A stretch of DNA of 64,000 bases. Source: Actinoallomurus purpureus (lineage in GTDB: Bacteria; Actinomycetota; Actinomycetes; Streptosporangiales; Streptosporangiaceae). The notes beneath the pieces were generated by a model. That model was not told the origin of the DNA and did no database searches. It was given only the letters and a program-made list of their open reading frames with translations. The position numbers were made by a program, and so were the translations under genes. Shown one piece after another: positions 57,885 to 60,218 of this stretch. The DNA is taken from positions 1 through 64,000 of the forward strand of contig NZ_JAMXMY010000021.1 of the NCBI RefSeq assembly GCF_024055795.1, written 5' to 3'. How positions within the stretch are numbered: position 1 is the stretch's first letter; each line of letters begins with the position of its first letter.

Positions 57885-58627
57885 GCACCTGGGCGGTCCC
57901 CCTGGTCGCGGTGGCCCACGGAAGCCGGGATCCGCGTGCGGCGGCGACGGTCGAGGAACTTCTCGATCTTGTACGTCGTTCATCGGGGGTGCGTGTCGTG
58001 ACCTCGTATCTCGACCACGCTCCCCCGGCACCGGGGCAGGCGCTCGGTGGTCTCGTCGGCGAGGGGGCCGACGAGGCCGTCGTGCTCCCTCTCCTACTCA
58101 CCGCGGCATACCACAGCAAGACCGACATCCCCGGCGCGCTGCGGGAGGCCCGAGCGGCCCATCCGCTGCTGACCCTGCACTACGGCGCCACGCTGGGCCC
58201 CCACCCGCTGATGACGAGCGCCCTGGAGGGACGGCTCGCCGAGGTGGGCGTGCGGCCCGACCCGGACACGGCCGTGGTGCTGGCCGCCGCCGGTTCCAGC
58301 GATCCGGCCGCGAACGCCACGATCGGCCGGATGGCGCGCAGCTGGCGCGGCTGGCGCACCGTCGTCCCCGCGTACGCCTCCGCGGCGCGCCCCACGCCCG
58401 CCGAGGCCGTGCGCACGCTGTACGAGGCGGGCGCACCACGGGTCGTGGTGGCGTCCTACTTCCTGGCCCCGGGCTTCTTCGCGGACAAGGTCCGGGAGGA
58501 GTCCCTGGCGGCCGGGGCGGTGGCCGTCTCACCGGCTCTGGGCGCCGTCCCCGAGCTGGCGGCGATCGTCTCGGAGCGCTATCGCGAGGCCCTCGTTCGC
58601 GCTGACCGCGTCGCGGCGGCGGGCTGA
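57866..58627 (+). CDS. CbiX/SirB-like sirohydrochlorin chelatase
   Basis: A 253-residue class II chelatase with two CbiX-like halves. N-terminal VAVAHGSRDPRAAATVEEL has the metal-binding His; AAYHSKTDIPGAL follows; the second half contains LAAAGSSDPAANATIG and VVVASYFLAPGFFADKV. It would insert iron (or cobalt) into sirohydrochlorin to make the sirohaem SirA needs. The ATG overlaps the end of cysH by 19 bp, which gives coupling; the start could be a little later. Confidence 0.85.
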   Translation: MRYQHLSTWAVPLVAVAHGSRDPRAAATVEELLDLVRRSSGVRVVTSYLDHAPPAPGQALGGLVGEGADEAVVLPLLLTAAYHSKTDIPGALREARAAHPLLTLHYGATLGPHPLMTSALEGRLAEVGVRPDPDTAVVLAAAGSSDPAANATIGRMARSWRGWRTVVPAYASAARPTPAEAVRTLYEAGAPRVVVASYFLAPGFFADKVREESLAAGAVAVSPALGAVPELAAIVSERYREALVRADRVAAAG

Positions 58628-58714
58628 TCGACCTTCTCCGGATCCGCCGGAACGTCCTGTCCCGTAAGGCTTTTCGGTAGATCCTCACGATGCGATCTCT
58701 TTCTGCCGTTCATG

Positions 58715-58795
58715 ATTGGTCGATCACGAGCGCTGAAATTGATCACGCGATGCGCTAATTCGATCTTTATTGGCGATCTTTATGGCGATCTTTGT
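58715..58795. repeat. Three CGATCTTTAT direct repeats upstream of the riboswitch promoter
   Basis: CGATCTTTAT occurs at 58761-58770, 58774-58783 and (as CGATCTTTGT) 58786-58795, about 12-13 bp apart. Just upstream, GATCACG occurs twice (around 58717 and 58740). The spacing suggests same-face protein binding. Confidence 0.7.
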
Positions 58796-58831
58796 TGCAC
58801 CCCCCATGTAACCCATGTCCAAACCCTATAT

Positions 58832-58860
58832 TTGGCATGTCGCTAATTGTCTGCTATGTT
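58832..58860 (+). promoter_or_regulatory. Candidate SigA-type promoter of the CHAP-protein transcript
   Basis: TTGGCA (58832-58837) and TATGTT (58855-58860) separated by 17 bp. Transcription from about 58867 would carry both riboswitch-like elements in a leader of about 570 nt. Confidence 0.55.
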
Positions 58861-59046
58861 CCTCTAAGTCCGGCGACGCCCCCCATGCGCCGCTCCGACA
58901 CCCGCCGGCAACGGCCGGCCCACCAGCGCAAACAGCGCAGCGCGAAGACTCGTGCGAGGGCCTCCGTACAGAGCCGAGACGGTTCATATCTCACATCGCG
59001 CCACTCCCGCGGAAACCCGTTGATCCATATGAAGCGGGAGCGGCAA

Positions 59047-59167
59047 CGTCGAGTCCGTGAAGATCACGGAGCCGGGGACCCATCAGAAGTCCCGGGGTGA
59101 ATCGGCACATCCCCTCGTGCCGTAGGGCGACTTCCACGCCCGAACCCGTCAGCTAACCCGGTAGGCG
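59047..59167 (+). promoter_or_regulatory. YdaO-type (c-di-AMP) riboswitch aptamer, first copy
   Basis: Contains the conserved YdaO core in order: a TCCGTGA/TCACGGA stem, GGGGACCCA, GGGGTGAATC, a GGCAC/GTGCC stem, GTAGGGC, and CCCGAACCCGTCAGCTAACC ending GGTA. The closing stem is short (CGTC/GGCG). This family binds c-di-AMP and in actinomycetes precedes cell-wall hydrolase genes such as rpfA. Here the aptamer is followed by AAGGAG, a seven-codon TTG mini-ORF (59189-59209) and a hairpin with a T-rich run, not a full gene. Confidence 0.85.
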
Positions 59168-59219
59168 CCTGGAAGTAAGGAGCAGAACTTGTCCGCGAGT
59201 CTTCCCTGATCTGAATACC

Positions 59220-59270
59220 GGCCGTCATCCCCACCCCTAGGCGACGACGGCCAGACCCTGTCTTTTGTTC
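59220..59270 (+). terminator. Intrinsic terminator-like hairpin between the two aptamers
   Basis: GGCCGTC (59220-59226) pairs with GACGGCC (59246-59252), followed after eight bases by TCTTTTGTTC. It could be the expression platform of the first aptamer. Confidence 0.55.
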
Positions 59271-59294
59271 GAGCCGCCCGCATGAGCGGGCGAC

Positions 59295-59409
59295 CCGCTG
59301 AATCCGCACCTCGCGGAACCGGGGACCCACCGCATCACTGGGGTGAATCGGCACATCGTGCCGTAGGGCAGCTTCCACGCCCGAACCCGTCAGCTAACCC
59401 GGTAAGCGG
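59295..59409 (+). promoter_or_regulatory. YdaO-type (c-di-AMP) riboswitch aptamer, second copy
   Basis: Same conserved core as the first copy: TCCGC/GCGGA stem, GGGGACCCA, GGGGTGAATC, GGCAC/GTGCC, GTAGGGC, CCCGAACCCGTCAGCTAACC, GGTA; closing stem CCGCT (59295-59299) with AGCGG (59405-59409). It ends 10 bases before the ribosome binding site of the CHAP gene, so it may control translation initiation rather than termination. Confidence 0.88.
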
Positions 59410-59435
59410 CATGGAAGCCGAAGGAGTACCCCCCA

Positions 59436-60218
59436 GTGTCCCCTCGTCACGCCAAACCCCGCCGTACCCCGAAGAGCAAGTACCTCGCCGGCCTCATCGC
59501 CGGCACCGCCACCGCGGGCGCGGCCGCGATCACCATGGTGTCCGCAGGGCCCGCCGTGTCCGCGCAGGTTCCCAGTACGTCCCGTCCGGCCGTTCAGCAC
59601 GTGGGCCAGATACCTGCTCCCGGTACGGGTACGGCGATGAGCGCCGACGCCCTGAGGGACTACGCGCACGTCGACCTGCGCCCCCTCGCCGCGCCGAAGC
59701 AGGCTGTGAAGAAGCTTCCCGCCGCTGTGAAGAAGCTGCCCTCCGCCGGGGACGTTCTCAAGCTCGCCCAGTCCCAGGTCGGCACCACCGAGAACGCGGC
59801 CGGCGGCAGCAAGTTCAACCAGTGGTTCATGTCGACCCCGTACGCCAAGCACGGCGTCCAGGAGAACGGCGGGTCCATCAGCGACTACGCCAACGCCTCC
59901 TGGTGCGACATGTTCGTCTCCTGGGTCGGCGACCAGCTCGGCGTCAAGGGAATGGGCGCCGACGCGTTCACTCCCACCCACGCCAAGTGGTTCATCTCCC
60001 AGGGCCGCTGGGGCAACGTCCCCAAGCCCGGAGCCGTCGTGTTCTTCTCCTGGAGCGGCGGCGGCGTCGACGGCATCGATCACGTCGGCCTGGTCATCAA
60101 GGACAACCACGACGGCACCATCCAGACCGTCGAGGGCAACACGGACGACGCCGTGAGGGTCCGGACGCGGACCACCTCCAGCGTCGTGGGCTACGGCTAC
60201 CCGCAGTACGCCCAGTAA
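59436..60218 (+). CDS. Secreted CHAP-domain cell-wall hydrolase
   Basis: A 260-residue exported protein with GTG start and GAAGGAG upstream. The basic signal region is followed by AGTATAGAAAITMVSAGPAV, then a Val/Lys/Pro linker and a C-terminal CHAP domain. The catalytic Cys is in ASWCDMFVSW, the His in DHVGLVIKDN, and TVEGNT completes the site. CHAP enzymes cut peptidoglycan stems or cross-bridges. Control by c-di-AMP riboswitches matches known actinobacterial resuscitation and cell-wall hydrolase genes. Confidence 0.9.
   Translation: MSPRHAKPRRTPKSKYLAGLIAGTATAGAAAITMVSAGPAVSAQVPSTSRPAVQHVGQIPAPGTGTAMSADALRDYAHVDLRPLAAPKQAVKKLPAAVKKLPSAGDVLKLAQSQVGTTENAAGGSKFNQWFMSTPYAKHGVQENGGSISDYANASWCDMFVSWVGDQLGVKGMGADAFTPTHAKWFISQGRWGNVPKPGAVVFFSWSGGGVDGIDHVGLVIKDNHDGTIQTVEGNTDDAVRVRTRTTSSVVGYGYPQYAQ

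Follow-up and report, generated by a model that had tools for sequence, protein, structure and literature searches.

The 64,000-nucleotide stretch of DNA analysed here (the window; Actinoallomurus purpureus, assembly GCF_024055795.1, contig NZ_JAMXMY010000021.1, positions 1 to 64,000 of the forward strand) carries, ahead of a gene for a CHAP-domain cell-wall hydrolase, what its sequence confirms as a genuine tandem of two predicted ydaO-type riboswitches for cyclic di-adenosine monophosphate (c-di-AMP). In the genus Actinomadura, a series of loci with the gene present, reduced to a remnant or gone, together with synteny and trees, supports the view that such tandems arose by loss of a gene standing between two riboswitches. 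In the window, the type of the upstream aptamer (aptamer 1) and the position of the start site behind it suggest that this aptamer once served an NlpC/P60 hydrolase gene, later lost. We lean slightly towards the reading that the tandem was born by this loss, that riboswitch 1 has since been kept by selection, and that it would now serve as an upstream OFF checkpoint for the CHAP gene.

Two Complete Aptamers before One Gene

Both copies match family RF00379 over the full length of the Rfam covariance model (model positions 1-134), the upstream one at 59037-59182 with 80.0 bits (E 5.7e-17) and the downstream one at 59286-59422 with 88.9 bits (E 1.8e-19), for a gathering cut-off of 38 bits. A first-pass annotation of the window had read two complete ydaO-type cores before a single CHAP gene, and this reading holds, with neither copy falling below the threshold. 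The core boundaries given below come from model R1, which was built partly from the present sequences; the independent test is the Rfam model. The conserved core columns that RF00379 membership demands are kept in both copies, with one of 61 deviating in aptamer 1 and none of 61 in aptamer 2 (the two column sets differ slightly). No open reading frame (ORF) of at least 80 amino acids lies wholly between the cores among the listed ORFs, and the arrangement is that of a doublet, namely two same-class aptamers before one gene, without a gene between them. The features of the locus are as follows:

58832-58860, forward strand: promoter-like site ahead of both aptamers, TTGGCA-17-TATGTT with a TG preceding the second hexamer
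59045-59168, forward strand: core of aptamer 1, c-di-AMP/ydaO type
59131-59136, forward strand: CTTCCA loop of aptamer 1, complementary to TGGAAG at 59170-59175 (putative pseudoknot, by eye)
59177-59182, forward strand: AAGGAG, one base past the pseudoknot strand, probably the Shine-Dalgarno of the lost gene
59189-59209, forward strand: mini-ORF TTG TCC GCG AGT CTT CCC TGA, six sense codons and a stop, probably what is left of the start of an NlpC/P60 gene
59220-59252, forward strand: GC-rich hairpin between the aptamers, outer stem of seven pairs, weak terminator candidate
59261-59270, forward strand: T-rich stretch TCTTTTGTTC, with four T beginning ten bases past the hairpin stem
59275-59292, forward strand: 7-bp hairpin immediately before aptamer 2 (fold of 59262-59293 at -15.6 kcal/mol, z -2.85)
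59294-59409, forward strand: core of aptamer 2, c-di-AMP/ydaO type
59421-59426, forward strand: AAGGAG, Shine-Dalgarno of the CHAP gene, three bases past the pseudoknot strand TGGAAG at 59412-59417
59436-60218, forward strand: CHAP-domain cell-wall hydrolase gene, GTG start at 59436, 260 amino acids (PF05257, E 1.1e-11)

The order of elements behind each core (AAGGAG, TTG mini-ORF, hairpin and TCTTTTGTTC after the first; AAGGAG and GTG after the second) is the one that the annotation had described. In a scan of 58600-59460, the promoter-like site was the sole one found, for 0.2 expected from shuffles, and none was found between the two copies; a transcription start between them, which the annotation had named as one point on which its reading could fail, has no counterpart in the scan.

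Gene Present, Remnant, and Gone in Actinomadura

Two samples of loci were examined, which share some organisms and are not independent. The first was drawn from named genomes that carry relatives of the CHAP protein; of 156 loci, 80 were retained. Of these 80, 19 have two or more riboswitch matches, L043 being cut by a contig end, and an NlpC/P60 gene lies between both riboswitches in five of the 19 (two checked by Pfam). The larger sample covers 60 Actinomadura-type genomes from a larger group, with 80 of the 83 best CHAP places searched with model R1 (left out were G244:C303, at a contig end, G209:C20 and G228:C1). Here, the order riboswitch 1 - NlpC/P60 - riboswitch 2 - CHAP is found in eight of the 80 loci, with a gap of 692-814 bases between the riboswitches; 29 loci carry two riboswitches without NlpC/P60 between them (gap 141-392 bases), 41 carry one riboswitch, and two (L205, L239) carry none. 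An NlpC hit lies upstream in all 37 two-riboswitch loci. Rfam returned 40 matches above the cut-off, two per locus, for the 20 gene-less tandems, out of 29, that were checked with it.

The gene-less loci retain traces of the start of the gene. All eight intact loci show a Shine-Dalgarno, 5-6 bases, and a CTG that opens a frame of 182-185 codons. Of the 29 gene-less loci, 16 (gap 231-392) keep the CTG, but their frame stops after 21-68 codons; in the remaining 13 (gap 141-180), the start is gone and a Shine-Dalgarno-like sequence is left, as it is at the place of the lost gene in all 29. Nor does one single loss explain the distribution. In a tree built from the upstream NlpC proteins of 42 loci (nine with the gene and 33 without), the approximately unbiased (AU) test rejects such a history (p-AU 0.007); three changes are needed on the best tree, and at least two are forced by the starred branches. 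L208, where the gene is present and riboswitch 2 was not found, is counted with the gene in this tree and stands outside the eight intact loci, while L174 and L175 (single riboswitch) were dropped on account of the very long branch of their upstream NlpC gene. Strong hairpins occur between the NlpC gene and the next unit in the six gene-bearing loci that were folded, so the hairpin between the aptamers of gene-less loci may be the old terminator of the lost gene.

Some further observations concern these loci. The riboswitch-controlled NlpC/P60 gene seems to be CTG-started just past AAGGAG in the eight intact loci (L176, L178, L180, L182, L183, L204, L209, L210), with an in-frame ATG directly upstream of the CTG in L178 only, and an apparent CTG start is also seen in an NlpC/P60 gene of the window's own genome (L006:1674-2222). 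In 13 close tandems (alignment A4), the Shine-Dalgarno is AAGGAG in 12, with AGAGGAG in L225, and an CCGCAGCG-like stretch that follows is conserved. An actinomycete metagenome-assembled genome (L044:2115-5146) has three c-di-AMP riboswitches in about 3 kb, the first two of which form a gene-less tandem before CHAP.

Ancestry of Aptamer 1 in the Window

In a tree of 54 aptamer rows, aptamer 1 of the window groups with NlpC-type, not CHAP-type, riboswitches (branch 95/83), and a single clade of aptamers 1 and 2 of Actinoallomurus is rejected (AU test, p 0.035). This tree omits two decayed copies and eight further rows of a 64-row tree, in which all 23 named riboswitches 2, from both genera, share a branch (99/85) with five other CHAP riboswitches, and no aptamer 1 falls in it. 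On either side, aptamer 1 has a flank of the NlpC type, AGCGGC in front and CTGGAAG behind, and the mini-ORF begins with TTG TCC six bases past AAGGAG, where most intact genes show CTG TCC. The lost gene would accordingly have been an NlpC/P60 hydrolase, and probably no duplicate of the CHAP gene.

Duplication is a common route to tandem copies, which counts in favour of a pair made by duplication of aptamer 2, as does the fact that the aptamer trees have only about 125 columns. Against it stand both branches just described, as well as the flanks of the two copies, which differ as those of NlpC and CHAP riboswitches of Actinomadura do. A duplication of aptamer 2 is rejected by the tree and the AU test as far as these reach, and we regard it as very improbable.

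The Pair across Actinoallomurus

The annotation had proposed looking for the pair in related genomes, and it is present above the Rfam cut-off in six of the eight genomes of the genus, the copies lying 94-129 bases apart. The upstream copy scores 80 bits in G000, 39 in G001, 79 in G003, 56 in G004, 41 in G006 and 82 in G007; the downstream copy scores, in the same order, 89, 85, 89, 91, 89 and 92 bits. G002 (A. iriomotensis) has the downstream copy alone at this locus, and no such pair was seen in G005, the genome of which is incomplete. An alignment of seven loci shows a conserved promoter-like element, leader blocks, aptamer 1 and spacer, with aptamer 2 nearly invariant. At the second promoter hexamer, six of these seven loci keep GCTATGTTC and RYN_226 has GCTATCGTC; the first hexamer is not conserved.

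Among the window, A. soli and A. spadix, identity reaches 92-95% in aptamer 1 and 96-98% in aptamer 2, compared with 82-92% in the spacer (up to 25 gaps), 83-90% in the CHAP gene, 88-92% in cbiX and 69-78% upstream of the promoter. Each of the three deviates in a single one of the 61 conserved columns of aptamer 1 when the reference is taken without these rows.

In the leader (58880-58990), the blocks CGCCGGC..GGCC.GCCC and GCCG.GACGGTTCATA are conserved with few changes in the seven aligned loci (two in the second block of G001); the exact patterns are absent from all other loci of this comparison.

Hairpin and Mini-ORF of the Spacer

The spacer between the aptamer cores is 125 bases long. 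The terminator that the annotation had placed there stands as a stable hairpin, the stretch 59205-59270 folding at -19.4 kcal/mol (z -2.61 against shuffles), but not as a canonical terminator: the run of four T is displaced from the main stem, with only a 4-bp mini-hairpin between them, and a terminator scan of 58600-59460 gave one site, with a different 5-pair stem, for a shuffle mean of 0.6. Folded one locus at a time, five of five Actinomadura spacers lie below shuffles (z -3.5 to -6.4), and the seven Actinoallomurus spacers range from z -3.0 to +0.6 (window -2.1, A. spadix -0.7, RYN_226 +0.6).

As a candidate antiterminator, in which the 3' strand of aptamer 1 would pair with the spacer, GGTAGGC is matched to GCGTTACC in the consensus fold of 13 close Actinomadura tandems; as the aptamer columns are invariant, this pairing gives no countable covariation. 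The same fold has a hairpin at the position before aptamer 2. In the main stem between the aptamers (11 pairs in these 13 tandems), double changes are absent, three changes affect a single side and one cell is broken. The seven-row Actinoallomurus alignment misaligned the hairpin arms, and covariation was not counted on it. The candidate antiterminator was rejected, its duplex energies being mostly not below those of shuffled spacers (p <=0.05 in three of the 43 loci examined, L251, L192 and L190).

By eye, a mini-ORF of six codons is seen in the window, A. soli, G001 and A. iriomotensis, and one of eight codons from CTG in RYN_226; counting the CTG, start and stop are present in six of the seven Actinoallomurus loci, DC4 being without a matching start. 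Six codons are too few for a test of peptide conservation. The mini-ORF of A. spadix has 13 codons, with an in-frame 21-base near-duplication (L014:1381-1422). A box ACCTGAATA (in the window ATCTGAATA, 59209-59217) comes after the stop of the mini-ORF; each of the seven aligned loci has it, unchanged or with a single change, including those where aptamer 1 has decayed.

Retention of Aptamer 1 and Competing Explanations

In Actinomadura, retention was measured on 68 columns conserved in riboswitch 2 and in single riboswitches, these two groups being the reference. Where the gene was lost, riboswitch 1 has a mean of 0.72 deviations (range 0-4, n = 29); the mean is 1.38 for riboswitch 1 in loci that still have the gene (n = 8), 0.16 for riboswitch 2 (n = 37) and 0.24 for single riboswitches (n = 41). 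Riboswitch 1 after the loss keeps 721 of 754 pair cells (95.6%; other groups 95.1-95.7%). Among 33 gene-less array loci, 31 have a complete riboswitch 1 and 30 a complete riboswitch 2; by eye, riboswitch 1 stands alone in L193 and L217 and riboswitch 2 alone in L236. A useless relic should vanish more often than its neighbour, and riboswitch 1 does not, which argues against such a relic. The core kept in the window, A. soli, A. spadix and the 29 gene-less Actinomadura tandems argues in the same direction. The annotation had offered, as one reading of aptamer 1, the relic of a duplicated and deleted hydrolase gene: the deleted hydrolase survives this comparison, probably as an NlpC/P60 gene in the case of the window, the duplicate of the CHAP gene does not, and the relic idea fits the origin of the pair, while the core stays conserved in the window and two near relatives. 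The other reading that it had offered, a functional pair, would suit the present state of aptamer 1, and both readings may apply, one after the other. One locus (L215:1941-2116) has a single riboswitch with a front flank of the riboswitch 1 type and a back flank of the riboswitch 2 type; by eye, the copies look fused.

Several points weigh against a tandem born by loss of NlpC/P60 and kept by selection. In the 64-row tree, the six Actinoallomurus aptamers 1 split into two places with weak support, four of them at an open fork (90/79) with two single CHAP riboswitches; both AU tests were made after seeing a tree, and CHAP genes also often start with TG TCC. No intact NlpC gene occurs at the cysH-cbiX-...-CHAP locus in the seven aligned Actinoallomurus loci, so it is the aptamer type, together with analogy, on which the origin assigned to the window is based. 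Aptamer 1 shows decay in RYN_226, DC4 and G001, where 6, 9 and 10 of the 61 columns deviate, and was not found by model R1 in A. iriomotensis. Comparison of five close Actinomadura tandems gives 83-93% identity for the 400 bases preceding aptamer 1, 87-93% for aptamer 1, 85-94% for riboswitch 2 and 72-90% for the spacer; since the preceding bases are about as alike as aptamer 1 itself, overall identity alone is no proof of selection in these tandems. Finally, the inter-aptamer hairpin is not a canonical terminator, and no antiterminator stands out from shuffled spacers.

Part of this evidence would suit a functionless leftover, that is, a riboswitch whose gene was lost and which has merely not yet decayed. 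The remnant of the start of the lost gene, the decay of aptamer 1 in three Actinoallomurus genomes and its absence from the search in another, the low Rfam scores of two of the decayed copies (39.1 and 41.1 bits) and the upstream stretch of the close Actinomadura tandems, conserved about as well as aptamer 1, are all expected of it. Nevertheless, none of the 61 conserved columns differs among the window, A. soli and A. spadix, whereas the spacer differs by 17.6% between the window and A. soli; at the spacer rate, zero change at 61 sites would have a probability of about 7e-6, a rough guide, as the columns were chosen with these rows included (the reference without them gives the single deviation in each noted above). 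With riboswitch 1 also complete in 31 of the 33 gene-less array loci of Actinomadura, a mere leftover seems unlikely to us. Similar doubt attaches to a riboswitch-gated leader-peptide attenuator, in which aptamer 1 would control translation of the mini-ORF, and this translation would set the passage of the polymerase, through a ribosome on the hairpin or through Rho. A Shine-Dalgarno and a start codon do lie behind the pseudoknot, frames of six, eight or 13 codons are seen by eye in six Actinoallomurus loci, and precedents exist in the upstream ORF (uORF) of the Mycobacterium tuberculosis Mbox (PMC12810186) and in B12 riboswitches with uORFs (PMC11260477). The frame is, however, the one that a relic would leave; DC4 is without a matching start, a start codon 3-15 bases past the Shine-Dalgarno is missing from 10 of the 13 closest-spaced Actinomadura tandems, and regulation of Streptomyces coelicolor rpfA is reported as Rho-independent (PMC9960051).

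Two other arrangements were weighed. Aptamer 1 and the hairpin could form a separate short RNA, with aptamer 2 transcribed from its own start; the hairpin and T-rich stretch between the copies are compatible with it, but no promoter-like site was found between the copies and the spacer has only 125 bases, which makes this quite improbable. It is harder still to credit that both aptamers fold together, bind four c-di-AMP cooperatively and share one expression platform, which PMC9481103 raises as a possibility for doublets that lack a strong terminator: a loop/3' complement and a Shine-Dalgarno belong to each copy separately, and separate hairpins lie between.

Proposed Mechanism

A tandem left by loss of NlpC/P60 would have as its ancestor the order riboswitch 1 - NlpC/P60 - riboswitch 2 - CHAP. 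Loss of the NlpC/P60 gene would have left behind riboswitch 1, the Shine-Dalgarno of the dead gene and, in the window, its first six codons, then the hairpin and riboswitch 2. The promoter at about 58832-58860 would drive both aptamers on one RNA. High c-di-AMP would stabilise aptamer 1, and less RNA polymerase would then pass through the spacer (hairpin or untranslated spacer); with a dead start behind it, aptamer 1 could act via the hairpin, via Rho on the untranslated spacer, or via non-canonical termination. RNA extending past the spacer would be checked again by aptamer 2, whose pseudoknot beside the CHAP Shine-Dalgarno would block ribosome binding, and low c-di-AMP would turn the hydrolase on.

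A loop/3' complement of at least 5 bases is found in 110 of 114 distinct riboswitches of alignment A3 (27 of 114 for a control stretch) and in 66 of 79 of alignment A2 (control 12). The Shine-Dalgarno lies 0-5 bases past the complement in A3 (found in 104 of 110) and 0-6 bases past it in A2 (49 of 66). If the pseudoknot forms with ligand, it would hide the ribosome site, in keeping with control of translation by aptamer 2; in the window, the loop complement adjoins a Shine-Dalgarno in both copies and would suit translation control for both. The OFF direction and the termination and translation steps are carried over from studied relatives and are presumed to apply here. The two-checkpoint model deserves moderate trust, because the T run of the window is displaced and no antiterminator rises above shuffles. 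As for a more general rule, we give an even chance to the proposition that gene loss between two riboswitch-controlled genes can repeatedly make tandems, the orphan riboswitch being captured as the upstream checkpoint of the next gene, with the codons left in the window possibly serving as a riboswitch-gated leader ORF that sets termination.

Genomic Context

The genome (9.25 Mb, 52 contigs) has nine RF00379 matches overall and one diadenylate cyclase domain, that of the enzyme making c-di-AMP. The order at the locus is nirA - cysH - cbiX - aptamer pair - CHAP - DPBB-like gene, where the second gene is a putative cysH and the DPBB match has 22.3 bits, below its cut-off of 28.8.

Comparison with Known Systems

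The first-pass annotation had called a tandem pair unusual. This does not stand: 77 c-di-AMP doublets have been reported, most with an apparent intrinsic terminator between the aptamers (PMC9481103), so the tandem architecture is not new, and it is not rare in this bacterial group. The new part is the birth of the tandem by gene loss. The available text of PMC9481103 names neither taxa nor an origin for the c-di-AMP doublets, and nothing on point was found, among the matches listed in the open-licence literature, for a tandem riboswitch origin by gene loss or duplication or for tandem c-di-AMP riboswitches in Actinomadura. One genus preserves intact loci, loci with a remnant of the gene and loci without it; the gene was lost more than once there and the aptamers are conserved, which makes it possible to trace how a tandem originates and how a new target gene may take it over. 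The finding also links c-di-AMP to cell-wall hydrolases in rare actinomycetes.

The window resembles the published doublets in having two c-di-AMP aptamers in one leader; unlike them, it has a non-canonical hairpin, a Shine-Dalgarno at the end of each aptamer, and apparent remains of a lost gene in its first unit (PMC9481103). With the Streptomyces rpfA riboswitch it shares the aptamer class and a cell-wall hydrolase as target, although rpfA has a single aptamer where the window has two. For rpfA, premature termination without a canonical terminator has been reported (St-Onge and Elliot, via PMC10117811 and PMC9960051), whereas PMC8079986 describes control of translation initiation instead, in S. 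coelicolor. The nlpC riboswitch of Corynebacterium glutamicum controls an NlpC/P60 peptidase, most likely at the translational level, with a suggested pairing of the ribosome site (PMC9960051); it is a single aptamer with its gene still present, and its target is like the presumed lost gene. Bi-mechanism SAM-II/SAM-V tandems are predicted to act by transcription termination first and translation second (PMC9481103), but combine two riboswitch classes, with an intrinsic terminator after the first. The M. tuberculosis Mbox, which controls a small upstream ORF through Rho-dependent termination (PMC12810186), differs in its ligand, its one aptamer and its conserved uORF peptide, and is similar to the window in its succession of a riboswitch, a Shine-Dalgarno with a small ORF, and a downstream gene.

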